In this document: piece after piece, positions 2,940 through 50,710 of the stretch
Position numbering within the stretch: the stretch's first letter is position 1
Layout of the letters: the number at the start of each line of letters is the position of its first letter
DNA from: Petrosia ficiformis
Taxonomy: Eukaryota; Porifera; Demospongiae; Haplosclerida; Petrosiidae
Direction: 5' to 3'
Assembly: GCA_947044365.1 (NCBI GenBank)
Contig: OX345636.1
Location: 26,215,466 to 26,279,465, forward strand
DNA: 64,000 bases
Translations under genes and position numbers: made by a program
The notes under the pieces: generated by a model
What the model was told of the DNA's origin: nothing
Databases searched by the model: none
What the model saw: the letters and a program-made list of their open reading frames with translations, nothing else

Positions 2940-2968
2940 ACCATTTGGGAAGATACTGGCTTTTTTTT

Positions 2969-14641: not shown

Positions 14642-15452
14642 GCTTTGCCTTCCTTAGCTCACTAGTGAGATGATTTCGCAAGCATTTGTACAACTTGAAA
14701 TATATTTCTTTCTTTTGTTTACTTGCAGTACGGCGAATGAGGTCTCTCTGACGCATAAGCTCTTTTATTTCCAAATTCATCCACGGAACCTGTCTTTTCT
14801 TACATTTCTTAGTTCTAATCGGGGCATGTTCATTTGCAATCTCCATGAATAGTGTATACCAAGCATAGTAACAGTCATTAATATCATTGAATATTTCACA
14901 TATTGACCAAGGAACCTGTGATAGATCTCGGCAAAAACTGTCAGAATTAAAGTTTCTCATATCACAATAGGTACTAAACCTAGGAGAGAGCTTTAATGTA
15001 GACTTACGAACACAATACACTGCATGATGAGCGCTCATTGAATGAATTAGGACACCAGAATCACAAACAACCTCCTTGTTAGTGGTAATCACAATGTCTA
15101 ATAGTGATTCTGAATGTGAAGTGACTCTGGTCGGAGTATGAATCAGTTGATCCATGTGGTAAGATTCACAGAGAGCAGACAGGCTGTCGTCCTTACCCGG
15201 AAGCAGATTGAAGTTAAGATCGCCCATAAGGATTAATTCCAGCTTACTATCAAGACACCTTGCCAGCATGTCTGATAGGGTTGTTAGGGTCACATGGTTA
15301 GCCTCTCTAGGAGGAATATAAACGCATGTAATTAGAAATGGTTTTCGATTTGGGATCTGAATTTCAGCTACAATGTGTTCTAAATCATTATGTTCTAGGT
15401 CAAACCGACGAAACATACTAATTCCATCTGCATAGTAAATATATATATCAGG
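14508..15452 (-). pseudogene. LINE apurinic-type endonuclease, N-terminally truncated
   Basis: Nicks target DNA for target-primed reverse transcription. Visible are IYYADGISMFRRFDLEHNDL, LITCVYIPPREANHV, the catalytic block LELILMGDLNFNLL and SHSESLLDIVITT. The conserved HH region is present as HSMSAHHAVYCV. The first part of the domain (the NxRS and ETW blocks) is missing because the element ends at 15452. Confidence 0.85.
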
Positions 15453-16616
15453 ATATGTGACCGCGAATGAGAAAACGTGTCTTGTGCGACTTTTATTGAT
15501 ATTGAGATATTAGCCAAAATAGATGGCATAGCTAACACTTGTCGAAATCGAGATTTCGCTTGCTTTATGATTATAGGTGACTTACTCATCCTCTGAGTTG
15601 ATCTAAAGTCCTCTGGAGTACTTCGCTATACTGCAAATACTCGTTTTATCACAGAGAACGTCAGCCATTGCTATAAACACGAAGCACAAACAACGAAATG
15701 TAACGCGGACGCTAACGGGAAATTCCATAGCAACGCATAGCAACGAATTTTATTTCAACAAAGAAAAGGCTCTTACTCAAGCTATGAACTCAACTAGGGT
15801 ACTTCTAACTGCTGGAGGTCAAGATGGTAAATGTCTAATCGTGCTACCATATCTGTGTGAAGAGTGAGTAACATTATCAATGTTTATGATCATTAAAAAA
15901 TAAATAACATTTTATAATGTTTTATAACAGATTTTGATGTTCAGTGATGATGTAGAAAGACTCGGTGATGTTGAGAACTTGTGATAAGGAGCTTGAACCT
16001 GTTGAAAATACATGTATTAATAATTTTTTAAAACTTTAGTTAAAAGAATATAAACAAAAGGAAACAACTCAAATAACTAAAACCAACTGAGTTAGCATAA
16101 CTACACGCATACAAGATAAAACTGTTACAGTTAATAACATCCCAGTTTCATGTCAAGTACAACAAATGCATTCCAAGAAGGTAAACAATAAATTTTATCT
16201 ACAATAATCATACTCACAATTTATGAGATTTCCTCCATCAATTTGGGCCTTGGATTGCAGAACAAGACACTCTAAACTAAGGGTGAACTTTACCATTCCA
16301 AATGAATGACAATATTGGCTATTAACAGTAAAAAAACAGGCATTTACAAACCTCCAAAAGCTTGTTTCTCTCTCACATGCTTGCGTAAACGGATAGTTTA
16401 CGGGAAAACGTGAAAAATTTTATAAATGGCTTTTCTAGCATTTTAATTTTAATTGCTGTCAAAGCTTTGAGGGAGTGTAACTCAGCAACGGAACATCAGA
16501 TTGCAAAATCGAAACCATCAGGAAGTAGCTTGAAACATGGAGAATCCGCTGATAGCAAAAACTCAATTTTGAATTTTAGTCCCACAAGACACGTTTTCTC
16601 ATTCTCGGTCACATAT
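15453..16616. mobile_element. Inverted pair of terminal repeats, possible 1.16-kb element
   Basis: ATATGTGACCGCGAATGAGA (15453 on) and its near reverse complement ending TCTCATTCTCGGTCACATAT (16616) match over about 40 bp with few differences. The outer 10 bp also match the termini of the miniature family at 27-30 kb (TATGTGACCG). The interior has no transposase. It does contain an exon-like piece at 15755-15866 (MNSTRVLLTAGGQDGKCLIV) followed by GTGAGTAA. Either this is one non-autonomous element with captured sequence or two separate ends. Confidence 0.5.
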
Positions 16617-22440: not shown

Positions 22441-23370
22441 ACAGTCTAAAACTTCACTCTTTTTAACTGCTCCAACTTTCACATAAGGGTGTTTTACTTC
22501 AGGTACTCCAACATATGGGTCGTGTAAAAGAAACAAATCACGTAAACTCTCAGGTTCGTTTTCATACATTAGCGACTTATAAAAAATATTAATGAAAATT
22601 GTGAGAGAGAGAGAAAGAGAAAGACTATGATACGCGCGCATACATGACAAAATTAGGAAACAAATTTAAAAAGAAAAAAATTATATCACAAATAACTAAC
22701 CAAAAAAATGAATTGAACTCCCAACTGAGTAAAAGCAAGTGTAATCCAACTACCAAAATCTAAATGAGAGTGAGAGGGCGATCATTTGCATACACAAGCA
22801 AATTAGGAACAAAGAAATCGCACACTGTACAAACGAGTAACTTACTAACCAACTCAAACCCAAGTTGCCAACTTTGATCTTACTAATAGTAAAAGTGGAG
22901 TTGCAGCATTTTATGGGGTTCAAGGTCAATTGTCACGTTCTGGTGACGTCAGACGTCATGTACATCTAAATTGTTCATAGTTTTGGGTTTCAGTTTCACT
23001 TTAGAATGTAGCAATAGCTCCATTACAAGCATCATTTGCTCATGGGATTCATTTTTAATGTCATATAAGCAGATGTTTCCAATTTGTGACAGGTTACAAG
23101 TTATCTGGTACTGCATGATTACATGGTCTTAAAATGTATGATTATGATTATATTGCAATCTTACTTCTGTATTTACGCTCATAATCACATGCTGAAATGA
23201 TAGTAATTCCAGCATGTGATTATGAGTATAAATATAACATAATATGTTTTAACATTCTTTGTGTGTAATACAATCTGTGTGTTAGCATAAACAATATAAA
23301 ACAGTACCAGCCATACAAACTAAGCCCTGGTGTGAAGTGGAAGAATATAAACTAATTAATTATAAAATAA
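22440..23370. other. Non-coding stretch
   Basis: AT-rich, including a GA-rich simple repeat near 22600 (GAGAGAGAGAAAGAG). 22920-22965 has GTGACGTCAGACGTCA, a CRE-like palindromic word that also resembles the GACGTC motifs of the TTAA element at 60.07 kb. No gene seen. Confidence 0.4.
23178..23226. repeat. Perfect 17-bp hairpin
   Basis: CTCATAATCACATGCTG (23178-23194) and CAGCATGTGATTATGAG (23210-23226) are exact reverse complements around a 15-nt loop. Its function is unknown. It may be a folded relic of a miniature element. Confidence 0.85.
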
Positions 23371-23371
23371 A

Positions 23372-23424
23372 TGGACAATCTGAATACAGACTGTTTCGAC
23401 CTATTGGGTCTCATCAGCACAGTG
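23372..23424 (-). ncRNA. Hammerhead ribozyme core (type I), weak stem I
   Basis: Read on the minus strand: CUGAUGA, stem II GACC/GGUC closed by loop CAAUA, then GAAA. Stem III is CAGUCUG/CAGAUUG (7 bp including one G-U) with loop UAUU, plus the A-U pair, and the cleavage triplet is GUC. All invariant core bases are present. Stem I is poor: only about three pairs form between ...GUG and CAU.... Cleavage would fall between 23373 (C) and 23372. It is closely related to the ribozyme at 44846 (same loop, same stem II). Such ribozymes are known in Penelope-like elements and metazoan retrozymes. Confidence 0.72.
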
Positions 23425-24271
23425 TATCCTGAATGTTATGTTAATAATCAAACCAAAGATCTTTAGAAATTTCACACATATTAATTTGTTCCTTTTTCAT
23501 TCTGCTATTGATTGGTACAGCAGTGTTTGCACAGATAATTTCTGGTGATGCAGTAATTATAGAGTCTTAGTCAAAATAATTGGAGTTGGACACACAGACA
23601 ACATGAACAATTGTGTCAGACTCAAAGGGTACACTAGAACAATGAATACACTATGTCTTCAATAAACATAGGAGTAGAGGCTGTGTATCAAGGTTGACAA
23701 GTACAAAATGTATATAGTCACCATACAGTACAGTAATTACTTTGGCAGTTTTTTTTTTTTGATCACACTAAAATAGTTCAACAGTAGTTTTGACAGCAAT
23801 CGATGTACTTCTGGATTCAAGTAGTGAGACAATAATTACTGTACTATACTAACAGTAGAACTAGGGTAATTACTGTTAGTGTATGGTGTCTTTTTATTGA
23901 CATATACCTTCACAGAATCTAATAATTATTGAAGTGTGTTATACACAGTACTGCTTATCACTTACTGTTGTGCTACAGCACATGGTTAACAAGTGTATAT
24001 AGAGAAAAAAAACATCCCTATGATTGCTTTACAAATTTAAGTAAAGATAAACATATCTCTATGACTGCTTTGTGGTGTCCAGCATTCGGTAATCATGGCT
24101 GACTACAGCATGAAAGACAACAGCTTATTATTTTGATTATCTACTCTCCTGACCTTTCAAAGGACCTTGTAGAACTTTAGGAATATATTTCAGGCAGAAT
24201 AGCTAGCTATTAGTTCCAGTTTCTACATAAGCTACACAGATTTCTTTCTGCTGCTGTGTAGAGCTTGATCA
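23425..24271. other. Non-coding stretch upstream of the hAT element
   Basis: AT-rich, with a short internal duplication near 24020-24075 (TAAAGATAAACATATCTCTA after a CATCCCTATGATTGCTTT unit). No gene recognised. Confidence 0.4.
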
Positions 24272-24279: not shown

Positions 24280-26597
24280 TAGTGGTGGGCGATACGATAC
24301 CAAAGTACTCAGATCGTCGATACCAAGTGTTCGATACCAGGAATCGATACCAAATTACAGAATCGAGTAGCAAGACCACGCCTACAAATGACGTTATTCC
24401 CGCCCACAAATAATTAATATTCATAAATTCATTAATAATAATTAATTTATTAACTATTATTAACTATTATATAACTGATTTATTGATTTAAAAAAAAAAA
24501 TTAAAAAATAGTTCATTGTAGCAGCTGTAACAACAGCCACTTACTGGCACTTAGCAGTAAAAACTACAATGTCTAAAGTGGTGTATGGGACTATTTCAAG
24601 AAAGATAGTGAGTATGCATATTGTTTAGTGGAAAGGTGCAAAGCCAAAGTCAAGCATTGTGGTAACACTAGCAATCCACTAAAGCATTTAGAATCATGCC
24701 ATGAAGAGGAATACAAGAAGTGTGTATCTGAAAGACCAACTAAGAAGGCACGATCTACTCAAGCTTTGTCCACCTCAACTCAATTGACTCTCACTGAAAG
24801 TATTGCATCAACACGAAAATATCATAGGGATTCAAACAGATGTAAAAAGCTAGATGATGCTCTTGTGGGAATGATCGTCACTGACTTGCAGCCTATTTCT
24901 ATTGTGGAAGACACTGGATTTCTTAGATACACATCTCTCCTTGATCCACGATATGAGGTGCCAAGCAGAAGAACCACTTCAAGGAGACTTCTACCTGAAA
25001 AATATGAAGTAGTAAAAAAAGCTTTGAAACAGAAATTGCAGAAATTATCTCCAATATCTCTTACAACCGACATATGGAGTTCTCGTCAGGCTTTTTCATA
25101 TTGCTGCCTAACAGCTCATGCCATCTCAGAGCAGTGGACACTGGAAAGCTATGTCCTTGAAACCTTCAACTTCAACACAGACCACACAGCTCAACACATA
25201 CAATCAGAACTGACGAGAGTCATTAATGAGTGGGGCTCGCCTACCATCACCTGTTGTGTGACAGACAATGCCTCAAATATGCTTGCTGGTATAGCAGAAG
25301 CTGGATGGAATCACTTACCATGCTTCGCCCATACACTGAACCTTGTAGTTCAGGATTCCCTTAAGTTGGATCCAACAATGTCAGAACTACAAATCAAGTG
25401 TAAAGACATCGTTTCACACTTTCACAGAAGCACGAAATCATCGGAAAAGCTTCGGAGTGTCCAGGAACAGCTCAAAATGCCTCAGTTAAAGTTGGTTCAA
25501 GATGTAGTGACCAGGTGGAATTCTACATATTTGATGCTTGAAAGAATTGCCTCCCAACATGAAGCTATTACCACAACTCTTTGCCTTTTAGATAAGGCAC
25601 AAATGTGCCTTTCCACAGATGAAAAAGATGTCATCTTACAATCACTTACTCTACTTCAACCATTCCTTCAAGCTACAGAGAACATAAGTGGGGAAAAGTA
25701 CGTCTCCATATCGATGATAATACCACTAACACGACTTCTCCTGCGTTCATGCAGTGCTGGTCCAAATATACCACTTTGCCAAAACTTGATCCAGGAATTA
25801 AACAAGCGATTTAGTCGAATCGAACAAAGATATACAATGGCAGTTGCCACTCTCTTGGACCCTCGATTTAAAAAGATAGCATTTGCTGATACCTCTGCTG
25901 TAGATCAAGCTGTTAGAAGGTTACAGGGAGAAGTGAAAGCTATGATTGATGATGAAGCCCGCCAAGCACCATGGAATCCCGATCTTCAGCAGAGTAACAA
26001 TGATCAACCAACAGTGGCAGGGTTATGGGTTGCATTTGATGAAAAAGTAGCAGAAGCAACTTCCCACCGATCTGGAGGTACCGATGCATTTATTGAGGTG
26101 AAACGATACTTTGAAGAGCGAAATATTGACCGAAAAGAGGATCCTCTTCAATGGTGGAAGGAAAACGGGGCTCGGTTTCCTCACTTAATGATAATGGCAA
26201 AGAAGTATTTGGCAATTCCAGGGTCATCTGTGCCCTCAGAACGTCTTTTTTCCAAGGCAGGGGAATTGATTTCTGAAAAGAGAAGTCAACTAAAACCAAA
26301 AAATGTAGACACTATACTATTCTTAAACAAAAATCTAAACACAGACTAAAAACTGACCTATTTCAGTATTTGTACTTAGCTATGTTGCTCACTATTATTA
26401 TTTTCATTATTATCTAGTCATACACAATACTTATGCAAACTTATCTCATCCTGTTGTTCCATCCATCCAGAAAAGTTATGCGCATGTGCAGTTGGCACTT
26501 TCCAAGTACTCATTCCAGTACTCGATACCACCGATACCGAATTCAAATCTACTTGGTATCGGTATCGAAATGAAATATCTGGTATCGCCCACCACTA
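24280..26597 (+). mobile_element. hAT DNA transposon, 2318 bp, both ends intact
   Basis: Terminal inverted repeats TAGTGGTGGGCGATAC (24280-24295) and GTATCGCCCACCACTA (26582-26597) are perfect over 16 bp and carry the hAT consensus (GTGGTGGGC). CGATACC words recur just inside both ends (24299-24350 and 26525-26570), as expected for subterminal transposase-binding sites. An exact 8-bp duplication flanks it. One transposase ORF fills the interior. Exact TSD and TIRs with a 570-codon open frame point to a fairly recent insertion. Confidence 0.95.
24577..26349 (+). CDS. hAT transposase with BED zinc finger
   Basis: The frame is open from just after a TAA at 24574 to the stop at 26349. It begins with a BED finger: VWDYFKKDSEYAYC, CKAKVKHCGNTSNPLKHLES, then H (C-x2-C...H-x3/5-H/C pattern). 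No in-frame ATG precedes the finger. The first ATG after the left terminus region (24569) is one base out of frame, so the start was lost by an indel or lies in an upstream exon. Numbered from the GTG at 24628, catalytic aspartates appear in LTTDIWSS (D148) and CCVTDNASNM (D213). The insertion-domain motif CFAHTLNLVV, VTRWNSTYLM and LLDPRFKK follow. The C-terminal hATC dimerisation domain (SSVPSERLFSKAGELIS) is complete. Confidence 0.92.
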   Translation, partial: SGVWDYFKKDSEYAYCLVERCKAKVKHCGNTSNPLKHLESCHEEEYKKCVSERPTKKARSTQALSTSTQLTLTESIASTRKYHRDSNRCKKLDDALVGMIVTDLQPISIVEDTGFLRYTSLLDPRYEVPSRRTTSRRLLPEKYEVVKKALKQKLQKLSPISLTTDIWSSRQAFSYCCLTAHAISEQWTLESYVLETFNFNTDHTAQHIQSELTRVINEWGSPTITCCVTDNASNMLAGIAEAGWNHLPCFAHTLNLVVQDSLKLDPTMSELQIKCKDIVSHFHRSTKSSEKLRSVQEQLKMPQLKLVQDVVTRWNSTYLMLERIASQHEAITTTLCLLDKAQMCLSTDEKDVILQSLTLLQPFLQATENISGEKYVSISMIIPLTRLLLRSCSAGPNIPLCQNLIQELNKRFSRIEQRYTMAVATLLDPRFKKIAFADTSAVDQAVRRLQGEVKAMIDDEARQAPWNPDLQQSNNDQPTVAGLWVAFDEKVAEATSHRSGGTDAFIEVKRYFEERNIDRKEDPLQWWKENGARFPHLMIMAKKYLAIPGSSVPSERLFSKAGELISEKRSQLKPKNVDTILFLNKNLNTD

Positions 26598-35191: not shown

Positions 35192-35320
35192 TAATTGGCG
35201 ACAACGAAGACAGGAAACCTATAGGTTGAAGAAAAAAATTTTGTAAGACTAGACGAAAGTAGGAGAAGTCGTACAACTGCAAGAAGTTTTTTTTTTCCCT
35301 CTATATACTATATAGGAGAC

Positions 35321-35842
35321 ATGGCGAAGCATGGATCGGTGGGAGTGTATAATAGCAATGGAGAAGATTGGGTGTCCTACATTGAACGCCTACAGAATTA
35401 CTTTGTGGCGAACGAGGTCACAACAGAAGCAAAGAAGAGAGCTATCCTATTGAGTGTGTGTGGAGCTCAAACATATCAACTGATCAGAAATTTATGCGCC
35501 CCAGTTAAACCAGCAGACAAAGAGTATCTGGATCTGATTAAGTTAGTGAAGGATCACTACAGTCCAAGAAGGTCGGAAAGAGTACAATGATTTAAATTCA
35601 ATATGAGGTCTAGACAGTCACATGAAACAATCGCTACATTTGTAGCAGAACTGGGAAAATTGTCAGAGTTTTGCAACTACGGAGATATGCTGGAAGACAT
35701 GCTACGGGATAGAATTGTCTGTGGAATAAATAATCCAGCCATGCAAAGAAGGTTGCTAGCTGAGTCAGGATTAACACTAAGTAAAGCCTTGGAGATAGCA
35801 CGGAACAGAAACCGGTACTTGTTCAGAGAGTCCAGTCAGTAG
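35321..35842 (+). pseudogene. Gypsy gag (capsid) with one nonsense codon
   Basis: Starts MAKHGSVGVYNSNGEDW. A TGA at 35588-35590 interrupts it (YSPRRSERVQ, stop, FKFNMRSRQSHETIATFV). The frame then continues through AELGKLSEFCNYGDMLEDML to LFRESSQ. A single C-to-T change from CGA would explain the stop. A frameshift near 35835 leads to the zinc-knuckle frame. Confidence 0.85.
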
Positions 35843-36488
35843 GATTTCAGAAAGCCAAGATAAATTTGTGCTATTGTTGTGGTGGATCACACTGGGCATA
35901 TGAGTGTAAATTCAAAGAGGCACAATGTTATATGTGTAAACAGAGGGGCCATATTGCTAAGGCCTGTAGGAGTAGTGGAAAGAAGCCTCCTGATCGAAAT
36001 CAAGGAAAGTCAAGGAGACAAACTCATTTTGTTGAGGAACAAGAGACAAACTCACCACCAAGGGAGTCGTACACATTGTTTACTCTTAGATCGAAAGGAA
36101 GTAAGCCAATTCGAGTATCAGTATTAGTAAATAAGCAGAAGGTTGACATGGAGGTTGACACAGGAGCAGCTAGAACGATAATTAGTGAGCACACATTTAA
36201 TGAAATACAGAAGATGAGGAAGCTGGAGTTGAAGACATCAGATATCATATTGAACTCGTATTCGGGACATGAAATTAAAGTGTTGGGAACGTGTGATGTT
36301 GAGGTTGTGTATCAGGATGTGCAGAAACCACTAACAATATTGGTAGTCGAAGGACAAGGTCCAAGTCTGCTCGGAAGAGACTGGTTGTTAGAGTTGAAGT
36401 TAAATTGGAAAGAAATTCAACAAATACAAGCAACGGAGGTCAGTGTTATTAAAGTACAATAAGCTTTTTGATAGTGAGTTAGGCACCC
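35843..36488 (+). pseudogene. Gypsy nucleocapsid zinc knuckles and aspartic protease
   Basis: Two CCHC-type knuckles (CYCCGGSHWAYEC, CYMCKQRGHIAKAC) are followed by a pepsin-like protease with the active-site block MEVDTGAARTIIS and LLGRDWLLELKLNW at its end. The first knuckle has an extra Cys at its second position but keeps C-x2-C-x4-H-x4-C spacing. Beyond 36462 the frame continues up to the TTAA insertion site at 36489. Confidence 0.85.
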
Positions 36489-36492
36489 TTAA

Positions 36493-37105
36493 CCCTTTGA
36501 ATGCGTTAGTTTATTAATGTTACTATGCACAAAAAGCGGATGGTGTAATAATGACTTATTCATAAGCTTTATTAGCTCTGTATTGTTGTTATGGCTATAA
36601 ATTCTATAAATAAATGAAATCTATTTATAGAACAGGAAGTTTTGATTAAAAAACCACACATTATCATATGGCTTCTTCTCAATTCCTTCGTGATTTTTAC
36701 CATTTTTGTTGTTGCTCGAGATTTGGCTTTTGTATCTACACAGTTGTATGCATGCCCCAAATGAAGTGATTCTATATAAGCTAGATGTCTCCTCCAGCTA
36801 CAGTGTAAGTTATAGCTAGCTATTCCCAGCAGGTAAGTCAGGACAAGCGTTCACTTTCTAGAAAGTTGGGCGTCGACCGTCTCCTTCGTCGAGTCTGTCT
36901 GCTCACAGTCTTTCATGGAAGTTTAAACTTGGTAGGTACTTAATCATAAGCCAGATACAGATGTATGGAAGGTTTGAAATAGTTCTAAGATAGTTTAAGG
37001 GTTGTTAGAAGTCGCTAAAAGTTGCACGCATATATATATATATGCGCACCGCCTTTAATTAAAGGGAAAGCTGCGCATATATATATGCGCATCGCGCTCA
37101 AAGAG
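36493..37105. mobile_element. TTAA-flanked miniature element (piggyBac type) inside the Gypsy element
   Basis: 613 bp between TTAA (36489-36492) and TTAA (37106-37109). Termini CCCTTTGAATGCG and CGCGCTCAAAGAG are an imperfect inverted pair, and TTAACCCTTT is a common start in piggyBac-like elements. A large hairpin of GCGCATATATATA arms lies near the right end (37027-37095). It has no ORF with transposase features. With the insert and one TTAA removed, the Gypsy reading frame runs on without a stop. Confidence 0.82.
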
Positions 37106-37109
37106 TTAA

Positions 37110-37706
37110 AGGGGAAACTGCCAAAATCCATTTAGACCCCCAAGCAAAACCAGTGTTCTGTAGAGCCCGTCCAGTCCCCTATGCCCAGCGTAATAAAGTA
37201 GAGCAAGACTGGAAAAGATGGGAATAGTTGAATTTTCAGAATGGGCTTCACCTATTGTACCTGTGATGAAACAGGATGGTACTATCCGAATTTGGGGTGA
37301 CTACAAGTCAACCATTAATAAAGTAGCCATATTAGACACTTATCCTTTACCCAAAGTAGAGGATTTGTTTGCAACATTATCAGGAGGACAATCTTTTACG
37401 AAATTAGATTTGTCGCATGCTTACCAACAAGTTGAATTAGAGTCTCAGTCCCAGAAATACTTGACGATAAACACCCATAAAGGCCTTTACAAATATAAAA
37501 GATTACCGTTTGGTGTTAATTCAGACCCATCTATATTCCAGCGTTTAATGGAAAACGTGTTGCAGGGCCTACCCCGGGTATGTGTATATATTGATGATAT
37601 CCTAATAACGGGACAGACAGGAGCCGAACACACAAGGAACATTGAATCAGTACTGCAGAGGTTACATTCTGTAGGTATGCGTCTCAAGAAAGAGAAATGT
37701 GTGTAG
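37110..37706 (+). pseudogene. Gypsy reverse transcriptase
   Basis: After the insert come IHLDPQAKPVFCRARPVPYA, a shift or loss near 37215, then EFSEWASPIVPVMKQDGTIR, DYKSTINKVAILDTYPLPKV, the catalytic FTKLDLSHAYQQVELE, and the active box VCVYIDDILITG. The usual RICxDYK motif reads IWGDYK. It ends at a stop after KKEKCV, followed by a short scrambled stretch. Confidence 0.88.
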
Positions 37707-37736
37707 TTACTTTATGACCCAAATATTGAGCATACT

Positions 37737-38460
37737 ATGGAGAAAGTTAGAGCAATTACAGAAGCACCTCACCTAAAGAATGTAGCAGAATTGAGAACCT
37801 TTCTAGGATTAATAAATTATTATGGGAAATTTTTACCTGATCTAGCTACTGTATTAAATCCCTTATATTGTTTATTACACATGAAGGTAAAGTGGAATTG
37901 GAAGGAAGAGCAGGAAAAAGCTTTTCAGGAAGCAAAGGAATTATTAAAATCACCCAGACTATTAACTCATTATGATAGTACTAAAGACCTAATATTAACC
38001 TGTGATGCTTCATCACATGGAGTAGGAGCAATTTTATCTCAGCGAGAGAGAGATGGAACAGAACGACCAATTGTGTACTACTCAAGAACATTATCACCAA
38101 CGGAACAAAGATATTCTCAATTAGACAAGGAAGCTCTCGCAATTGTTGCAGGAGTAAAGAAGTTTCACCAATATTTAGCCGGCAGGAGATTCGAAATTAA
38201 TACAGATCACAAGCCTCTAATATACATCTTTGATCAACATCGGGGTATATCACCTCTAGCATCTGGAGTCTAATTTTAGCAGGATATGATTATACAGTCA
38301 GACACCGTCCGGGAAAGGAAATACCAAATGCTGATACACTTAGCAGATTACCATTATCAGAGAGATTATTGGTTACACCCATCCCAGCAGAATTAATACA
38401 TCTGGTTCAGCATCTTAACTCTACCCCCAGTTACGGTATCAGAAATTAAGTACTATACTA
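37737..38460 (+). pseudogene. Gypsy RT thumb and RNase H
   Basis: Connection segment ELRTFLGLINYYGKFLPDL, then RNase H with TCDASSHGVGAILSQ (first Asp), SQLDKEALAIVAGVKKFHQY (Glu) and EINTDHKPLIYIF (Asp). A small deletion at about 38267, inside the segment after GISPLAS, shifts the frame. The end continues as ILAGYDYTVRHRPGKEIPNA and ADTLSRLPLSERL. Confidence 0.88.
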
Positions 38461-38701
38461 ACAAAGATCCAGTTTTGTCTAGAGTAGCAAGTTTAGTAAG
38501 TCATGGATGGCCAAATGACATGGATACAGAAGAGTTCATACCATATTCGAGAAGGAAGGACGAGCTGAGCATGATGGATGGTTGTGTATTATGGGGACCA
38601 CGGGTTGTTATACCGTTAAATTTACAAGATCAAGTAATCAACGAATTACATGAAAATCACCCTGGAATCGTAAGAATGAAAGCATTGGCTCGTAGTTATC
38701 T
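38461..38701 (+). pseudogene. Gypsy integrase, N-terminal zinc-binding part only
   Basis: Begins YTNKDPVLSRVASLVSHG and ends HENHPGIVRMKALARSYLW. The H-x-x-H of the HHCC module is present (HENHPG). The CxxC half and the whole DDE core are missing because the element is cut at about 38701. Confidence 0.85.
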
Positions 38702-41000
38702 ATGGAGTTTCTAGAAAAACATTTTAGAAGAGAGTTCAAGTTTCAAGCTAACGTTAACCTAGATATCACTTTTCAAAGAATTGACAAAGACTGGGACGAG
38801 TATATAGAAGTTGGAATTGGTTGTAAGCTGGAACATAAAGCAAAACTTAAAGCTGTTGTCACTCCTTTACTGACTTCAACTGAGGTATCAGAGGTAAAAC
38901 AAGTATTCTCATGATAAGCATATTATTTATGTGTATACACACACACGCATATATATATATATATATACTGTATATATATTAGAGCTGGGTGATATTAAAC
39001 TGCTATCATGATCACGATATTAACTTTTAGCGCTATCGCGATAATAACATGTGTTGTTTTGAGAATGTGCAAGGTCATAATACCAGACTACCCCTTATTC
39101 CAGATACTTTTGATCGATTCAATTTAACCTAACAGTAGACTGACAAAAAATATACTTTTTACACATGAAGAGAAAGTTGAAGAGAATTTTTATTTATTCT
39201 AGTATATATATAATTGCATGTAATATATTTTAGTGTTGTGTATACTATCATTTTCTTTTTCAAGATCATACAGATTTAATCACTCCTGTATCTCGTGTAA
39301 AGACTCATCACAAGCTACACATCTCTTCACCTATTACAAACACCCCGACAGGAGATGAAACGAGTTCATTTAATTCTACTTTTTCTGAAGACGAGAGTGA
39401 GTTTTCAAGTGCTCCCAAAAGGTGCAAATTGTCACTAATTTCAGAAAGTCCTTCACAATAGGGAGATGAAGAGAAAACTGGTGATCTTGCAACCCTGTGT
39501 CGGTCAATAAAAAAACAAATTCTGTGAGCATGGATAATCAAGACACTATAGTATCTAAAACAAGCTATCAAAGATTATCAAGACAGAAGATGATAGTATT
39601 CCTTTGCCTCACCCATTTCCTTTACCGAAACATTATCGATCAGAAGTTGAATTAGATTTGAAAAGTGGGAAAATGACAAAAAAACTCAATGTCCTCATTT
39701 TTGTCTGCAGTTGCTTCTGCAATGCTAGTATATAAACGTTATCCAAGTAAAGATGATTACATATCTGTTGCTAGAAGTGTTATTGAGAAATACAGTTTCT
39801 TGTCATCACTGGTGGGAACTCCATATGTGAGTTTATGTTATTTATCAGATATAACTCTTGATATTGATCCATAATGATATTCATGATATGGTTGTATACA
39901 ATGTATATATTTTAGATTTTTGCTGCTAGTAAAAATTCTCTTTATATATATTCTATAGGGTGCTATTGTCACTTCATTGCAAGAATTAAACCAAATGCTT
40001 GTGCTAGCACTAGAAAGTCTCCAAAGAAGAAACACCCGGGAGTCACTTGCACTCCTATACCTTCACCAGGGGAAGTTCAGTGTCATTTCAGAGACATAAT
40101 CTTATGCTAAAAGTTGAATTCAAGGAAAGCCGTAGAAATTCTCAATTGGTTTCCAATTTAATGGAATGAACATTTGCATTGAGACGGAAAGCTATTTTGA
40201 AAGTCTTAAAAGCATTTTCCAACAATTTCCATTTCTAAAAGAAAGTAAACAGGTACATATGTTTATGCTAATATGTATTGAGTCATTCGCTTTACTTTAC
40301 AATGTAGAGGAAACTAGAAAGAAATGGAAGGAAGTTGCCCCATGCATTATTTCCCTGTCACATTTGGAAAGTAGAAACCGCAATGTTCGTTCTGCTCTAG
40401 AAATAATGAAAAACTTTGAAGGTATAATGTATACATTATCTTGACTAACATGGCTACCCCAACTCTTCTGTCTTGGAGTCATGTTAAATTTCAATTGTGG
40501 TTTTTTTAAGGGTATGAAAAGGAATTTTAAGAATTTATATCCTGGTAACACCTTAGTTCAAAGGATTTCACTGTAACTATAATAGTGCTACAGTGCACTC
40601 AGTACATATATATACTTTGTTGTTTGATACATGCACTATTGATCGTTTATTGTTCATTGAACATGTTTTTTTTTAGTCCATCAATCATGTAAACCATATA
40701 GTATAGAAATAAATAACTTGTATCACGACCACTCGTGTGATACCAAATCACTTTGGGCTCGGTGATTATAAATGTGATATAGCACTCTTAGACGTGATGA
40801 AACCTATACATAAATATTTAAAGAGGTACAAATTAATTGAATTCTACTTGTTAGATAATATGGAGTTGTCTGCATTATTGATTCTTCCTGCTCTAGTGCC
40901 GGACAATCGTTCAAAGGTGGATATAAGCAAAGTTGTTTATATCGCTCAGGTAATATTTATGCAGCATATTATAGTTATTATGTAAGAGGAAAATAAAACT
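38702..41000 (+). pseudogene. Decayed SAMD3-like gene (family common in fish and invertebrates)
   Basis: Pieces in order on the plus strand: 38702-38914 (ubiquitin-like or PB1-like start, NLDITFQRIDKDWDEYIEV); 39264-39460 (acidic linker, SFNSTFSEDESEFSSAPKRC); 39575-39825 with HPFPLPKHYRSEVELDLKSG and, after a one-base shift in an A run near 39680, VASAMLVYKRYPSKDDYISV; 39960-40120 in two frames; NSQLVSNLME (stop) TFALRRKAIL near 40136; 40240-40441; and 40745-40950 (YKLIEFYLLDNMELSALLIL). The FPLP..Y..DVE..L and RYPSKDDY..VAR blocks plus LM..TFALRRK are hallmarks of proteins annotated SAMD3-like. Stops and shifts show it is dead. Its 5' end is replaced by the Gypsy breakpoint. Confidence 0.6.
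38940..39060. repeat. TA tract and a hAT-like terminus
   Basis: CA and TA simple repeats (38936-38975) followed by TTAGAGCTGGGTGATATTAA and CGATATTAA/TCGCGATAAT words, resembling one end of a hAT-type non-autonomous element within an intron of the dead gene. The second end was not found. Confidence 0.4.
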
Positions 41001-41700: not shown

Positions 41701-42690
41701 GATAAATACTACCATTGTAAATTGTATGTGCATATTATATAACTATCACTGTTTTACTTTTATTTCCTCATTGCCTTGCCAAACACCTCCATATGGAGGC
41801 CACCTTGTGACTTAACAGAGAAGACTTCGAGATATGAGTTACTCATCGAGTTTTCCGAGCTGTGTTCGTGGCTACCATGTATACCATACTGAGTGGAAAG
41901 CAAGATTAGCCAATATACCATGTGCATTGTTAGTGATTATTAGCCAATATACCATGTACATGACCAATGAGAATGCAATCAATGCATATGGTACATTTTC
42001 CGCTACACACAGTACTATGTTACCGCACCCATTTCCAAATTCTGAAAAAATTTGAAAACAGTCTGTTGTGAACTTTCTTCCAAAAGTTTGAACCACAAAC
42101 TTCCTGTAACTACATGTATATAATAACGGCAGGCACCAGGCAGTTCGGCTCTGTATGATTTGCTGAATTTCCGGCAGTATTATTGTAGCTCTCCCCGTCT
42201 GTTGAGTGTCTGACGGTAGCATACTGAACCTTCTCCTACCCCTTTCTCAGTAGCTCCTTGATATTTGGCCTCCCGGGATTTAGGTTAGTGTCTCGTGTGT
42301 TGATATAGCTACAGTAGATTTGCCTTTGCTTCTAGTTCTGTGTATTATGTATCTCTCTCTGTTCTTACTATAGTTTTTACAAAAATGGCAACAGATAAAC
42401 CAACAGATGAACCAACAGATAAATCAACTGATGAACCAACTGAAGAACCAACTGGTTAGAAACAAAATAAAATTTATATATATATATATATAATTATACT
42501 ATGATTGATTATGTCACCCATTAAAACTACATGTGGTATATATAGTATAACCACCCCCCCTCACCCCCACCCCAAAAAAAAACTACAGATTCCTCAGTAT
42601 ATCAACCCACAGGTGTATATATTCACCACTTTATATACCATGAAACTTAATAAATGAAATGATACTGAGTCAAGGTCACTGTCCTTGTAT
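41701..42690. other. Non-coding stretch
   Basis: 41880-41960 contains two copies of AGCCAATATACCATGT. 42385-42453 has a short repetitive open frame (MATDKPTDEPTDKSTDEPTE) made of a 12-bp unit, ending in GTTAG, possibly a first exon. 42476-42492 is a TA tract. No other gene signal. Confidence 0.4.
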
Positions 42691-42776
42691 GTTAATGTTA
42701 ATTGTACAGCCCTGCATATTCCTAAATAGTATGTTAATATTAATTGTACAGTTCTGCATATTCCTAAATACCATGC
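42691..42776. repeat. Tandem duplication, about 48-bp unit
   Basis: TGTTAATGTTAATTGTACAG...CTGCATATTCCTAAATA occurs twice in a row with four differences. Confidence 0.8.
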
Positions 42777-43462
42777 CTTTCATCAATTCATCTCCACCTC
42801 GTAAAACAAAATTTAGTCCGTTATAAAAAAACACACTATTCAATAACGCAGAGGGGGAATGGGTTCCCATTTCACTTTTCTCCCAGAGAAGAGAATCTTC
42901 CGTGGCTGCAATAATTTCTGATTGCCGCCTCACTGCTTTGATACCTTTGCTGTGCAGTTCACGAAACAAGCGCTCCAGAACCACATGTACTGGGGTCACA
43001 TATTCGAACATGATTGTCAGGAGGACAACTTTCATTTTAAAAAACACTGCAACCCCCCAAATTTTGTGTGATACTTCTTGGTGTATAGAAATCACCGTCG
43101 TCTTTACGGATTTCACTCACAAAAACACACAACCAGTGCGCAAGATTCTCTGGTTCATCTTTCAATATATCCACTGGACATTTTTTCTTGGCAATGGCAT
43201 TATGTTGCTCAATCCACTGCTTGAAAACAGCAACTGCCCAGTTGGTAGCCTTTCTAGTATTTTTGGGTACCATAGGCTTCTTGGCATTTTCTATCTCCTC
43301 TTCATCTACAACAACAATTTTCCAACGTTTTCCCAGTGAAAGGGTTAAGTGCTTTCGTTCCTTACTGATGCTGCTGCTGCTGCTGCTACTACTACTACAG
43401 ATGGCCATTCTGAGTCTCTGACAAATTATCTGGAATGATGACATCATCATTGCATAAACCAT
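42777..43462 (-). pseudogene. Crypton-derived tyrosine-recombinase-like remnant (DUF3504 / KIAA1958 type)
   Basis: Minus strand. An N-terminal SAM-like part starts with a serine run and contains VPKNTRKATNWAVAVFKQWI, ENLAHWLCVFVSEIRKDDGD and YTPRSITQNLGG, the arm-binding-like region seen in KIAA1958, QRICH1 and ZMYM-type proteins derived from Crypton recombinases. A frameshift near 43035 follows. The next part reads RELHSKGIKAVRRQSEIIAA and EDSLLWEKSEMGTHSPSALL, then VFFYNGLNFVLRGGDELMKG, the start of the DUF3504 domain. The catalytic R-H-R-Y end is absent. The poly-Ser run is coded by CAG/GCT repeats (43368-43398). Confidence 0.72.
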
Positions 43463-43619
43463 AGCTTTGAAGTGTATTCACCCCCTAGTGGAAGACCTTG
43501 CCAAGATCATGAATGATATGATACCAAGAATCTCGTGTAGGTACTTGCAAGATTCTTGAACAATAATGAAACAAGAATCTTGCAAGATAGTAGCAAGATT
43601 CTTGAATGTAATCTTTCAA

Positions 43620-44450: not shown

Positions 44451-44511
44451 GGGCGGTGGGTGGTATCAATATTCGTTTCAGCATTAATACAGTATGTCTA
44501 TGTGCATGTAT

Positions 44512-44563
44512 ACATACATGTCTGTTTACTGTATGCATGTATACAGTAAACAGACATGTATGT
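44512..44563. repeat. Perfect 23-bp hairpin
   Basis: Arms 44512-44534 (ACATACATGTCTGTTTACTG...) and 44541-44563 (...CAGTAAACAGACATGTATGT) are exact complements around GCATGT. It lies in a CATA/TGTA-rich microsatellite. Confidence 0.88.
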
Positions 44564-44845
44564 GTATGCATACACATATATACGCACATATGTGTATATT
44601 ACAAAGACATATATGAATGTCTGTATGTGGATATGACGCTGAATGTATGTGTATGTTTATGTTGAGGATCCAACAAATAGTTTTTGTATGTATGTACTAT
44701 GTACATATGAAGTGGAGAAGACAAACTTCAGCTGCTTGTGGTTGTAGTGACCAATATTTTTAAGACTGGTACTAGTATTGAGGTCATGGTACTACATATT
44801 TTTGTAATATTGTGTAATTCTATTACATTATGAATTTGAGATGCA

Positions 44846-44907
44846 CCATGCTGATGAGACCCAATAGGTCGAAACAATCTGATTTGTATATTCAGGTTGT
44901 CCATGGT
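44846..44907 (+). ncRNA. Hammerhead ribozyme, type I, complete fold
   Basis: Stem I ACCAUG/CAUGGU (6 bp), core CUGAUGA (44851-44857), stem II GACC/GGUC with loop CAAUA, core GAAA (44871-44874), stem III CAAUCUGA/UCAGGUUG (8 bp, one G-U) plus the A-U closing pair (A44874-U44900), loop UUUGUAUAU. The cleavage triplet is GUC with the cut after C44901. Every invariant nucleotide of the hammerhead core is present. The RNA would cleave itself and process multimeric or read-through transcripts. In metazoans such ribozymes occur in Penelope-like elements and retrozymes. No PLE ORF lies next to it. Confidence 0.9.
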
Positions 44908-45500
44908 TTGCTCTGAAAATAAAAATCTACTCACTAGCGATGGTTTATTGCTTGTATAATGCTATAATTATAGTAGAACCAATTAATACTCAGATTGTAC
45001 TTGCCAGGTTGCATTACAATTATAATTGTAATTGAGGGTTAATTACAACTATGTAATTGTATGTTATTGTGTAATTGTACTGTAATTAGGAGCATTTGTA
45101 TAGATGCTATTTTAAATCCAACAGATTTTCATTCATTAATCCTAAGTTGATTACTAATACTTTCAATTTAGAATTGTGCTAGCAGTATTGCTGTAATTAT
45201 ACTTTAATTGCATGCAACTGTACATGTAATTGTCACATAATTATAATTCAACAGTGGTTGCCTTTTGTAATTGAACCCAGGCCTGCTTGTAATGATCTAA
45301 TTCTTCTTAACTTGCAACATATTAGAACGAAAAAAAAAAACTACAAGATTTTGTATCATCATATTAATCATTAGAAAGATCATCATATTAGAACGATAAA
45401 AAAAAACAAGACATCATATTAGATTTTGTATCATCATAATTATATTCATTCGAACAAAAAAAACTATCATCATATTTCCCAAAGATTTTGACAACAGGTT
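44908..45500. other. Non-coding stretch rich in TGTAATTG repeats
   Basis: 45000-45260 repeats GTAATTG and its complement many times (GTAATTGTATGTTATTGTGT, TACATGTAATTGTCAC), like a hAT-type non-autonomous element. 45320-45470 has repeated ATCATCATATTAGA units with A runs. No gene. Confidence 0.45.
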
Positions 45501-45508
45501 CTATATAA

Positions 45509-46643
45509 TTATTTGAATTTGCGCCTTTTGCTTTTTGAAGTTCCTTGTATGTTATGAATAGGTAGTCCAAAATGGTCTTCCACTAGTGGATGTTTCATGC
45601 AGTCCCAGTTAACAGTTTTGTTTACGAGTTCGGTAAAATACCTGAGAGCACCATAACTCTCTAGTTTACATTTGATGTTGGAGGGATACTTTTCATAATT
45701 TTTCGGCAGTGGTTTAAGGAACAACCTGCAACAGATATCAAAAAATAAATTGGCTAGAAAGGTAAACATAAATTTTTGCTTTTACCTGTGATTAATTGCC
45801 AACCACAAAAGTGTCATTGCATGTCTTGATAAACCATCTTTGGTGGCTAGTGGTACACGGTTAGATATAAGTAACACATCAAGTTCACATTGGTAGAGAC
45901 ATAATCGAAAACTTATCGATCAATATAGTCGGTGTTATCGGTTCCAAACTTGGATGTAGGTTTTTTTCAGTAAATGCGGAAGTCACACATGTGGCAACTG
46001 TTTGTGGCAAATCTGAAGCTGTAGCACATAATTTCGCCTCAAATAGAGTAGTTGTTCCTTCCCTCTCCTCACTGCCACTGCAATACGAAACAGAAACTTC
46101 TTCCATTTCTGCTGTAGCACTACCATCACTGCTGCCACCATCATCATCATCATTGTCCTTTTTCAAAATAACACTAGCTCCCCTCACTCTTGCATCTGGC
46201 GTCCCATGCCAAGTTTTCACAGTTCCAATCCCAATATTTCCGGTATGGAAACGCCCACTGAAATGATATCTTTTTTCTAGGACCATTTCTTCTTCACACA
46301 GAGGTGCTAATATTTTGGAGCAAATCTCCAGAAAAACCTTCTGTTCGCTTAATGCAGTTCCTTCTTGCCAAGAAGGCCAAGGATGTTGTCGACATTTGCT
46401 AATAAATTTTATTTGTTCACTGTGTTCCGGTTTTGGTGAATATTGAAACAAATCTTTAACTTTCACACCAATCCGAAACAGGTTTTCAAGATCGGTGTAT
46501 GGTTGAAGAGAGAGATTGAGACGTGAAAAAGAGGCTTGCTGGTGAAAGTTTCCCTCAACACGGTAAAATACAAATGCAATATTGGTTTCTAAATGTTCAA
46601 AAGCATAATTCACATTCATTTTCCACTTTTCAAACTGCTCCAT
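45509..46643 (-). CDS. Putative PD-(D/E)XK nuclease-like gene, one frameshift
   Basis: Start ATG at 46643. Exon 1 runs to 45786, a 60-nt intron (45726-45785) follows, and exon 2 ends at 45509. Residues around 140-215 read TVKTWHGTPDARVRGASVIL, an acidic loop, then TTLFEAKLCATASDLPQTVA. The PD and ExK elements, followed by a helix with Q, fit the catalytic core of the restriction-endonuclease-like superfamily. A single extra T in a TTTT run (45908-45911) ends the first frame (DKFSIMSLPM). The other frame continues CELDVLLISNRVPLATKDGL, crosses the splice in phase, and reads LFLKPLPKNYEKYPSNIKCK to the stop after KSKRRKFK. It resembles an uncharacterised family of marine invertebrates; exact identity is not known. 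Confidence 0.6.
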
Positions 46644-46648
46644 TACAA

Positions 46649-48037
46649 CTATAAAAATATTATTAATTGTTTACTGTGTAGAATCACAGGATATCTACGA
46701 GAGTATGCCAATCCACAGTTGTCTTGACGACCACTTAAACGAAGTATGCCGCTTGCATCAATGAATGGGTTGAGAGATCGGAGTATACTACGGGCTGGAA
46801 GTTGCTTCTCGTTTGTAATTGCAAAACACTCATGTTGAGAGTATTTGACCCAGTATGCTTCAGCATCCCATAACTCTTTAGTTGACAATTGACTTGTCAT
46901 GATGTTCTTCTTCTGACAATGGTTGATAAAACGAATGATCCATGCTGTGATCCGTTTTAGGTGGTTAAAATCAGAGTATCGATTTAGCGGAATGATAGGT
47001 GGTTCTGTGTGATCATGCGTGTGATGACACAACTCTTCAGAGCAATCTTCTTCAGGCATTGAGGCACAACTACTATTTCGTCTTGTCCAGTCATCAGGAG
47101 ATACTTTCAGCCAATCTGGGCCTGACCACCACATCTTGTGTCCAATCAGTTCAGACGGGAACATCCCTCTGGATGCGCAGTCAGCAGGATTGTCTACTCC
47201 GTTTACATGACTCCATCTTGCTGATGGGATCAACTCCATTATGAGTGAAATTCTGTTACCAACGAACTGTTTGAATCTTCCTGGATTGCCTTTCAACCAA
47301 TCTAACACGATGGTACTATCAGTCCATGCAAATACTTTACATGTTGTAATGTCCAGGACTCCCTTTACATGATGGAGAACCTTTGCCAGCAGATATGCTC
47401 CACACAATTCCAAGCGTGGAATAGTTAGTCTCTTGATAGGAGCAACTTTGGTCTTCGCCAACACCAAGGATACATGCACTTTGCCTTTAGAGTCAGTCAT
47501 ACGTAGGTATACCACACTTGCATATGCGTTTTCAGAGGCATCACAAAACCCGTGTAGCTGCAGCTCCTTAATTGAAGCATCTTCATGAAAATAATAACGA
47601 CTGATGTGTTTTTTGGACAGAAGCTTCAATTCCATCCTCCATCGTAACCATTCTTCGGCAATGTACTGGGATATGTCCTGATCCCAATCAACTCCTACTT
47701 CCCACACTCTTTGTAACAAAATCTTGGCCTTTACCATTGTAGGTGAAAACCACCCCAAAACATCAAATGTCTTTGCGATATCGGAAACTAATCCTCTCTT
47801 TGTGAGGTTATCAAACGAAGGTGGTTCATTCGTGGTTAACCGAAAATGATCGAGTTTAGAATGCCATTCAACACCCAGGGTCTTCGTATAGCCTTGAGAT
47901 TCGGTGATCGACAAAATACTCCGGGAGTCTTGCAGTTCAGGAGGCAGTGTTTGAATCACTGATGCGGCATTTGAGTTCCATTTTCTCAAAAGGAATCCAC
48001 CCTTAGCAAACAGACCTTGTAACTGTTGCTGCAGCAC
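46649..48037 (-). pseudogene. Pao RT C-terminal part and RNase H
   Basis: 462 codons open. GGFLLRKWNSNAASVIQTLP and LGVEWHSKLDHFRLTTNEPP are the end of the RT palm and thumb. VLGWFSPTMVKAKILLQRVW and LHGFCDASENAYASVVYLRM start the Pao RNase H. TIPRLELCGAYLLAKVL, CKVFAWTDSTIVLDWLKGNP and VDNPADCASRGMFPSELIGH follow. The last residues (ILRLSGRQDN ... PVILHSK) are the lead into the integrase zinc finger, which is cut off. Confidence 0.9.
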
Positions 48038-48640
48038 AATGGCTTCCTCTTTAGAATCAGCACCAATCAGACCATCATAACATAGAATGAGTTGAACACA
48101 GCTTTCACTGCTAAGGGAAATTCAGAGGCATTATCAATCGCATTCCGTCTAACAGCCATGTTTGCTGCAAACGGGGACGCTGAAACTCCAAATGTCACCC
48201 GAGTCATACGGTGGTCTTAAAGAGGTTTGTTAGGATCACTTCTCCAGACGAATCGGTGGAAATCACGGTCAGATTCAGTTAGCTCAACTGCACGATACAA
48301 ACGGATGATTTTGCTGAAGCGTCAAAGACTGCTCTGATCTTGGTAGTTGAACTAGATTCTTTCTGTACAATGTGCATGGGTAGAAAGATAATGCTCGCTC
48401 CAGAAACAAAAATCTTTGGACTGCTTGAGATCGTGACTCCCCAATAGAGGGCATGTTCAACTTTCTTGGCAATGGAACCACAAACCGCCCACTAGAGGAA
48501 CGAAAATGATGAGTTTTAAACTGATTTACTACAGTGCGTTCTTCCATAGACCAGCAAGCGGAGTCAGTTCGAGGGATTTCTTCAATTTCCCAGAATCGCT
48601 TCAACATATCGTCTGGATCGGTGACAGTGTGATGAGAAAC
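48038..48640 (-). pseudogene. Pao RT N-terminal part, internally deleted
   Basis: Begins MLKRFWEIEEIPRTDSACWS (48607) with SGRFVVPLPRKLNMPSIGES and SQAVQRFLFLERAL. Around 48300-48310 the segment after FDASAKSS joins directly to LYRAVELTESDRDFHRFVW, so roughly 50 codons of the fingers/palm are missing compared with complete Pao polymerases. Near 48078 the catalytic YVDD box has lost one base and reads YVMM. Confidence 0.82.
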
Positions 48641-48648
48641 AACATCTG

Positions 48649-49627
48649 TTAGGCCTTCAGTGTCTGCGGCACCAGCAATGACTTGGTTTCAATTGCTACA
48701 GGAGTGTGAGGTGGGCCGACCCGCCGGCCATGTAACAAAACTTCGACGAACACATCAACACCCAGCAATACATCAATCTGACCCGGAATTCCAAACTCTG
48801 GGTCTGCCAGCTCAATGTCAGACAAATGACTCCAACGACAATCAAATGGAACGTGGTAACGAGGTAAGTCACAGGTGACTTTGGGAACAATTACAGCTGT
48901 CACTGTAAATTTCTCATTTGGAGACTGAGTAGGAGAAACCTGGAAACTGGTTGATCGGTGAACTATGGGATAGCCCGCCAACACCCATTATCTTGGCAGT
49001 GTGTCGAGATCGGGGAAGGTACAAACGTTGAGCCAATCGATCAGAAACAAACGATGCTGATGATGCTGAATCAAGCAAAGCTCGGGCGACAACACATGAG
49101 CCACTAGGTGAGTGTATTAGCACACGACAGGTCATCAGTAATGATTGAGATTTGATGCCCATGGTTGCATGATTTGTCACTGGGGTTGAATCCTCCCTCA
49201 GATTGACCTTACTAGGTGTTTCATTGTGTAACAGAGTGTGGTGTTGACTATGGCACTTTCTACAACGATGAACAGATTTGCATTGTCCAACGTAGTGGCA
49301 GGGTCGAAGACAATTAATACAGTGATTATGTGTCCTTAAGGTTGACATCTTCCTGTCATGTGGGAGTTCCTTGAATTTACTACAGGTGAACAATGGATGC
49401 CTTTCCGGCTTACATAATACGCATACTGATGCCTCAGAGATATCAGCATTAGTAGCAAATGATGTTACTGGCTTACTGGAATGAAATTTCCCTTTAATCT
49501 CACCCTTCGTGTGTTTCTTGATGTCTGATGTAGATGTTTCGGATGCTTGTGCCCGGAGGTTTATAAATTCCAACAGATCCTGGTAATTTGTTGTACATTG
49601 GTCGTATCCTGACTGTGTTTTTGCCAT
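48649..49627 (-). pseudogene. Pao zinc knuckles and aspartic protease (DUF1758)
   Basis: Contains CVLCKPERHPLFTCSKF and CINCLRPCHYVGQCKSVHRC (CCHC-like knuckles), then the protease ARALLDSASSASFVSDRLAQ and LPRSRHTAKIMGVGGLSHSS. A frameshift near 48975 leads to TAVIVPKVTCDLPRYHVPFD and the ELADPEFGIPGQIDVLLGVD block that closes the protease region. Confidence 0.87.
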
Positions 49628-50710
49628 TCGAACATAGTTGTTGTGTCTAATTTGAGTTCGACAACAGACATGATGAATGGGCTTGAAGGCTCACAATCCA
49701 TTGCCTTCAATGCTCGAATATGCTGTTGTACCGTACCGTATCATGCAATCTGCGTAGCTCTCTACCATCACCACTCTTGAGAGGTGGAGCTTCCAGGATC
49801 ATACGCACATGTGTTTGGTGAATGAGTCGTGGACGGTCGTATCGGGATTTCAGACATTCAATGGCTTCTGGGTAGCATTCTCCTGATCGAGAAAGCCCTT
49901 CTATTGAACGCTTGGCTGGACCATCTCTCAATGACTGTTGGAGGTAAATGAGCTTTTCAGCATCTCACAAGTTGCTACGATCATGAACAGATATACGGAA
50001 TTGATCCCAGAACGTCTTCCAATTTAAAATGTTTCCATCGAAGCTAGGGACATCCAACTTGGGAAGTTTCACACCTTCACGAGAGGATGAAGTTGACGGT
50101 ACCGTAGAATGAACACGGCATTCTAGAAATCGTTTCACAGTTAACGAACATTCGAAAAGCCTTTTGTCAATTTCAGCTTGCTTACCGGACAGTTCATCAT
50201 CTTCTACTTCATCAATGCTGAACATAGATTTACATATGTCATCAAGTTCATGTTTGAAATTAACCAACTGTTCATCATACAAACGGATCAAACAAATATC
50301 ATCAGCTTCAGATAGTTTATTAACAGCTTCCGCAACGATTTCGAAGCTTTTATGGAGGTGGTCCAGTCTCCTACCAGCTGTTTTTGTCACCGAGTGAGTG
50401 TTCAACCGAGGAGACGTATCAATCAACTGCTCTAGTCGAGTAGACAAATCAAGGACTTCGTCATCATGTTGGTCGAGAACATCCTGTTCACGTTCCAGGT
50501 TGTCTTCCTCTTCGACTAAATCAATGATCGCTGAATGGTGAGTTTTAAAATCTGAATCAAGTGATTCCAGCTTTTTCAACAACTTTTGGGCTAAGTCAGA
50601 TATTCCAGGTTCATCTTTCTTGGCTTCGGCTTCTCTGACTTTAGTAAACCAGACGAGTAACGGAGGCACGTGTCACTCCTCTTCGTCTGAGAGTAGGCAG
50701 ATCTGTCATC
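49628..50710 (-). pseudogene. Pao gag (DUF1759)
   Basis: 50669-49965 reads EAKKDEPGISDLAQKLLKKL (coiled coil) to VKLPKLDVPSFDGNILNWKT and FWDQFRISVHDRSNL, the DUF1759 opening. 49931-49707 continues AKRSIEGLSRSGECYPEAIE and RYDRPRLIHQTHVRMILEAP. Frameshifts lie near 49950 and 49700. The true N-terminus is in another frame upstream (RRRGVTRASVTRLVY near 50690), with one more shift at about 50650. Confidence 0.85.

Follow-up and report, generated by a model that had tools for sequence, protein, structure and literature searches.

What kind of element does the hammerhead ribozyme motif on the plus strand of this sponge DNA belong to, and is the motif itself real? The whole stretch of DNA analysed, hereafter the window, comprises 64,000 nucleotides and lies at C1:26215466-26279465 in the genome of Petrosia ficiformis. 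The genome searched has 191.2 Mb in 29 contigs, and the available text of PMC12648040 describes a published chromosome assembly of this species, odPetFici3.1, with 35 scaffolds.

The window hammerhead and its family

By direct reading, positions 44845-44907 of the plus strand contain a complete type I hammerhead with all core bases and three helices present (Table 1), and the motif is confirmed as real at the level of sequence. The original prediction was of a complete plus-strand ribozyme with the core elements CUGAUGA, GAAA and GUC in place and with stems I, II and III of 6, 4 and 9 bp, including the A-U closing pair, all of which agrees with the direct reading. Of the interval then given, 44846 to 44907, the end is correct and the start is one position too late, as the 6-bp stem I begins at 44845. 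An outer part of stem I, GAG/CUC, lies outside the interval first reported and is separated from the 6-bp stem by an internal loop; most other aligned A copies have GGG/CCC here.

RNAfold returns the expected hammerhead structure for 44845-44907 at -18.7 kcal/mol (z -2.7, with 0 of 200 shuffles reaching it). With the flanks included (44836-44916) the z value is -2.0 and 5 of 200 shuffles are as good. A strict hammerhead descriptor picks out a single site in the 64 kb of the window, the present one, and 0 sites in 60 dinucleotide-shuffled windows, in line with the earlier view that a chance origin is very unlikely. The same prediction had named a covariance-model score below threshold as evidence against the motif, and such scores were literally obtained: the window copy has 24.5 of 52 bits for HH9 (RF02275) and 31.2 of 56.3 bits for the RAGATH-1 hammerhead (RF03152), its best Rfam matches, and the best genome copy has 33.4 of 34 bits for Hammerhead_1 (RF00163), just under the cut-off. 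The Rfam cut-off is a database threshold and not a property of the ribozyme itself. Since conservation across the genome and covariation are independent support for the structure, the low scores are not taken to refute it.

Table 1. Positions of the ribozyme parts and neighbouring features in the window
Feature	Position	Strand	Basis and remarks
Type A hammerhead ribozyme with extended stem I	44838..44914	+	Direct reading, fold, alignment; family model 111.3 bits (copy is in the training set)
Outer stem I, 5' strand GAG, partner CUC 44911-44913	44838..44840	+	Alignment
Stem I, 5' strand ACCAUG (type B: ACUGUG)	44845..44850	+	Alignment
Core CUGAUGA	44851..44857	+	Direct reading
Stem-loop II GACC-CAAUA-GGUC, 4 bp (44858-44861/44867-44870)	44858..44870	+	Direct reading
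Core GAAA, last A pairs with U44900	44871..44874	+	Direct reading
Stem III, 9 bp (44874-44882/44892-44900, including A44874-U44900), 9-nt loop	44874..44900	+	Reading, fold and alignment
Expected cut between C44901 and C44902	44901..44902	+	From hammerhead anatomy
Stem I, 3' strand CAUGGU (6 bp with ACCAUG)	44902..44907	+	Reading, alignment
Cassette remnant	44464..46670		98% identical to the C1:31.51 Mb copy over 44464-46668
Cassette gene	45785..46643	-	Homologues of about 288 aa, no known domain; frameshifted near 45.91 kb
BEL/Pao-type retrotransposon coding remains, where the cassette B end is expected	46649..50672	-	Pfam hit confined to 46649-48121; remainder assigned from position and sequence
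Decayed second hammerhead with a type B 5' strand; core and stem II intact, stem I broken	23343..23442	-	Family covariance model 78.9 bits (in the training set)

The supposition that the hammerhead is part of a repeat proved correct. With up to 2 mismatches allowed, its 25-nt core has 261 near-identical copies in the genome and none in the reversed control. Exact 32-mers separate two types, of which type A has 92 sites genome-wide and type B 121 (controls 0), and the window copy is a type A. The difference lies in stem I, which is ACCAUG/CAUGGU in type A and ACUGUG/CACAGU in type B, so that two base pairs are swapped on both sides. No exact match to the core 25-mer was found in viral or prokaryote sequence collections.

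For the structural comparison 28 distinct modules were chosen with a search pattern in which the core and most of stem II are fixed and the stem II loop is free. The cores of the other copies are therefore no separate test of the invariant core, since these copies were found through it. Alignment of 21 of the 28 modules, with near-duplicates left out, gave 20 distinct rows, in which 97.9% of 429 cells are paired, against 22-43% with slid partners. The six junction-proximal pairs of stem III form in all 20 rows, the outer three not in every row. Two stem I pairs are altered on both sides in 8 of the 20 modules. Double-sided changes occupy 19 cells (reached by 0 of 500 shuffles) and 5 pairs (reached by 7 of 500), the covarying cells not being independent evidence for each copy because few events lie behind them, namely the A/B split and an outer-stem A-U for G-C in the window subfamily. 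Ten further pair types do not exceed the shuffles, 395 of 500 of which reach that number. Stem-loop II, GACC-CAAUA-GGUC, is identical in 28 of 28 distinct modules, including the loop left free by the pattern, and the internal loop of stem I, situated opposite the stem II loop, is almost constant. From this constancy we infer a contact between the two loops.

The alignable part of types A and B spans about 50-146 nt at the ribozyme, as a rule the ribozyme itself and about 30 nt upstream of it. Beyond this module their flanks mostly fail to align, a z value of at least 3.5 against shuffles being obtained for 3 of 25 outer pairs and 0 of 25 inner pairs; the flanks diverge while the ribozyme stays constant. 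At C1:54140795 and C2:8750731 the 5' strand of stem I has the type B sequence within flanks that are 94% identical to those of an A arm, which suggests end-to-end exchange or repeated compensatory change. A 439-bp A unit was rejected as an element in its own right because other A copies align further than its limits, which reflect the breakpoints of the query copy.

Facing pairs and the genes between them

Counts of pairs are confined to chromosome 1 (C1), where the exact A and B lists are both complete. There are 117 exact sites on C1, 34 of type A and 83 of type B. Neighbours less than 16 kb apart number 28, against about 3.4 expected at random, and 26 of them face each other; one is plus-plus, one minus-minus and none back to back (minus-plus). 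The facing pairs have a variable spacing of 0.6-16 kb, cover 0.25% of C1 and take up 52 of the 117 sites, the remainder being solitary. By type they are 18 AB, 6 BB and 2 AA. The BB and AA pairs break a strict A/B rule; one AA pair, of 0.6 kb, is a simple inverted duplication, and some BB pairs may be AB when judged by flank, compare the sites C1:54140795 and C2:8750731.

On other contigs the exact A list shows type A clusters on C3, C6 and C10. The cluster at C6:5.47-6.35 Mb has 24 exact type A sites, 23 of them minus, and that at C10:4.87-5.86 Mb has 16, of which 14 are plus, with a spacing of 5-175 kb within these two. Within 20 kb no B partner was found at one locus of the C6 cluster or at the lone A of C10:4.35 Mb. 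At two C3 loci (L037; L039/L040) A and B follow one another in direct order at distances of 1.8 and 3.0 kb, an order that could yield a defined RNA released between two cuts.

The cassettes bordered by facing ribozymes hold different genes. The genome was searched with four gene families, picked as lying inside facing pairs or beside the window copy; the queries were two homologues, P0001 for the window gene and P0014 for the gene of the 28.33-Mb cassette, together with the ORFs from the cassettes at 24.05 Mb and 1.31 Mb. Gene matches were counted on C1 only, because the B list is incomplete on the other contigs. Hits were merged by eye, and loci with a best E of at most 1e-20 were regarded as stronger. 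There are 26 stronger loci of the four families, 11 within facing pairs and 15 outside, and the 16 weaker loci above the limit all lie outside pairs, giving 11 of 42 inside overall. All 11 stronger loci inside pairs have the same polarity, B upstream and A downstream, although these cases are not independent: the families had been picked out of cassettes or the window, 3 are the loci of the queries themselves, 2 share one cassette and several cassettes are mutual copies. Four of the 15 stronger loci outside pairs have a lone ribozyme within 10 kb, which for the window gene is an A on the 3' side and for the other three an upstream B in the same sense. Between the upstream B and the matched part of the gene there are 0.9-6.1 kb, so B need not be within the mature leader.

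The four families have no match in common in the genome searches, and a profile comparison of two of them gave no alignment. Cargo proteins have no Pfam or NCBIfam match above cut-off, and a Pfam scan of five ORFs (four cassette ORFs and the window ORF) likewise gave no family above cut-off. Searches of PDB sequences and PDB folds returned nothing above cut-off, with no fold match at E <= 0.001, and the predicted cargo structure is a low-confidence model (pLDDT 63). A P-D...E-x-K-like pattern was seen by eye in several cargo genes, in the family of the window gene as G-T-P-D...E-x-K. The cargo genes are not called nucleases, because the motif is seen by eye only, the model has pLDDT 63 and no solved fold is matched at E 0.001.

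The window retains the A end and the frameshifted gene of such a cassette. The gene adjoins the ribozyme at 0.9 kb and is delimited by the minus-strand ORF 45885-46670 together with its homologues (13 proteins). The copy sits in a larger duplicated unit; the cassette remnant is broken off at 44464, to the left of which the relatives share further sequence, and at 46670. Neither the family covariance model nor alignment to intact relatives shows a B partner for this cassette. The model detects only two sites in the 64-kb window, the copies at 44838 and 23343, 21 kb apart. No terminal repeats were found for the BEL/Pao remains.

Other repeats and mobile-element remains are present in the window. 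At 44492-44583 there are inverted arms of 46 nt, 78% complementary, in a TG/CA-rich repeat with sub-threshold microRNA matches on both strands. To the left of the break at 44464, adjacent minus-strand ORFs at 42676-43477 have DUF3504 and QRICH1 domains, which we take to be remains of a Crypton-like tyrosine recombinase. The mobile-element coding remains at 873-3259, 24577-26346, 35225-38714 and 12834-15509 include a DDE_1 transposase with a PHD finger and, judged from sequence alone, hAT-like, Gypsy-like and LINE-like ORFs.

Explanations for the arrangement

The structure of the ribozymes, their covariation and copy number, the facing arrangement and the gene polarity are established at the level of sequence. 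The reading preferred here, held with about even confidence, is that the window motif is the ribozyme at the A end of a decayed gene cassette of the kind bordered by ribozymes, which face inward and would cut RNA entering from either side. The better preserved cassettes have type B upstream of a small gene and in the same sense, and type A downstream and antisense to the gene. Among the copies compared, little is common to both cassette ends beyond the ribozyme module of about 110 nt.

Hammerheads cut RNA solely in the sense orientation. As both ribozymes face inward, a transcript arriving from the left would reach A and one from the right would reach B, and the ribozyme first met would cut at the border. 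RNA leaving the cassette would read the antisense copy of a ribozyme, which should be inert. A cut at B would detach the RNA of the gene from upstream read-through or a leader, and a cut at A would detach antisense RNA arriving from the 3' side. Both cleavage within the cell and its purpose we infer from this geometry and from what is known of the motif's chemistry. It is conceivable, if doubtful, that the cassettes make up a new class of element, modules with inward-facing hammerhead borders at which any transcript coming from outside would be cut. The ribozymes would then serve mobile genes, which may encode nucleases, as insulators or end-definers at the RNA level.

The alternative that survives best, though unlikely, sees in the ribozymes regulatory elements of a gene family that expands without being mobile, with B in the 5' region and A, in antisense, in the 3' region, the genes having spread through segmental and tandem duplications. 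This would fit the larger duplicated units in which cassettes sit, the units common to copies exceeding the cassettes in size, as well as the A clusters on contigs 3, 6 and 10 and the failure to find ends or target duplications at the boundaries inspected. However, four gene families with no genome match in common have the same kind of borders, and a single duplicating family is therefore not a simple explanation.

A cut-and-paste DNA transposon is improbable. The ribozymes would then belong to its subterminal inverted repeats and would split the ends in read-through RNA, preventing a dsRNA hairpin from feeding small-RNA silencing. The inward orientation at both ends, the variable length of 0.6-16 kb and the fixed polarity agree with this, as do some short inverted repeats outside the ribozymes. 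In the seven cassettes examined the ribozyme module itself is an inverted repeat, which measures 74-114 nt in the six cassettes in which it came within the blast limits, and the other inverted repeats across the cassettes measure 62-118 nt and differ between them. Those of the 28.33-Mb locus are of 118 nt (87%) and 73 nt, that of the 1.31-Mb locus is of 103 nt (78%), and those of the 31.51-Mb and 6.13-Mb loci are of 72 and 62 nt. The outer repeats thus vary between cassettes, which speaks against transposon ends, and the longest are dispersed repeats: the 118-nt repeat recurs elsewhere, and the 103-nt repeat also occurs beside two B copies on contig 3 and in two relatives. None of them is called an end, though some may be. 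Nor was a transposase seen, no cargo ORF scanned having a Pfam family above cut-off, and no target duplication was visible by eye at the shared boundaries of several copies.

The original prediction had favoured a solo Penelope terminal repeat or a retrozyme making small circular RNA. For an RNA circle the same strand has to be cut twice, and ribozymes that face each other do not provide this. Most classical type I animal hammerheads do sit in retrozymes, according to the available text of PMC7229834, and A and B occur in direct order at the two contig-3 loci. Nevertheless, of the 28 pairs of close neighbours on C1 26 are facing, the two window copies are 21 kb apart, direct tandem units of 150-450 bp are absent from the window and from 200 kb of other loci, and stem III is long, not minimal. 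On arrangement both origins were rejected, Penelope coding sequence having been covered by the Pfam scan of five ORFs, and as sources of small RNA circles they are very improbable. It had also been stated that no Penelope coding sequence lies beside the ribozyme; this holds in so far as the gene 0.9 kb away is not a recognised Penelope gene, but coding sequence does adjoin (46643-45785). Chance resemblance, for which the sub-threshold Rfam scores might be cited, was rejected and is practically out of the question in view of the 261 genomic copies (control 0) and the absence of sites from 60 shuffled windows.

Comparison with known systems

HH9, one of the best Rfam matches, is an intronic amniote motif. 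The sponge family is large, with many copies in facing pairs round genes, unlike HH9 and the RAGATH-1 hammerhead. Crinkler-type nuclease effectors are carried by transposons, and the cargo genes share with them a P-D...E-x-K-like pattern by eye; as there are no Pfam, NCBIfam or fold matches, this is a resemblance only, and the same applies to PD-(D/E)XK nucleases, for which the comparison is one of a motif seen by eye with a model of pLDDT 63 and no PDB fold match at E <= 0.001. A literature search for a link between Crinkler and hammerheads found none.

In the accessible parts of PMC7229834, PMC6155905 and PMC6431247, animal hammerheads are described in tandem retrozymes, in Penelope-type retroelements or singly in introns and UTRs, the intronic ones occurring in amniotes (PMC6155905). 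The metazoan non-LTR retrozymes are similar to the sponge family in their type I hammerhead, low GC setting and constant loop II possibly contacting stem I, as far as the available text of PMC7229834 describes them. They consist of units of 150-450 bp in direct tandem that give circles (PMC7229834, same text), whereas the sponge copies are spaced, and those that lie close are turned towards each other with genes between them. Hammerheads within large composite elements are also a feature of Penelope-like elements and rotifer Terminons (PMC6431247, available part). Their hammerhead is minimal with a very short stem III, in contrast to the 9 bp of the window copy, and the five ORFs scanned here, four from cassettes and one from the window, have no Pfam family above cut-off.

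Neither hammerheads in sponge genomes nor facing, gene-flanking pairs were found in the literature searched by title and beginning of the abstract, subscription papers and supplements aside, a search that does not establish absence in print. The kind of ribozyme is already known, and its paired, gene-bordering arrangement is unlike the settings in the literature surveyed, in the parts available. If the cuts occur, the ribozymes would be gene borders, a role not met in that same literature. The facing pairs surround different genes with a fixed polarity, and the question can be tested in a single sponge with a published chromosome assembly.
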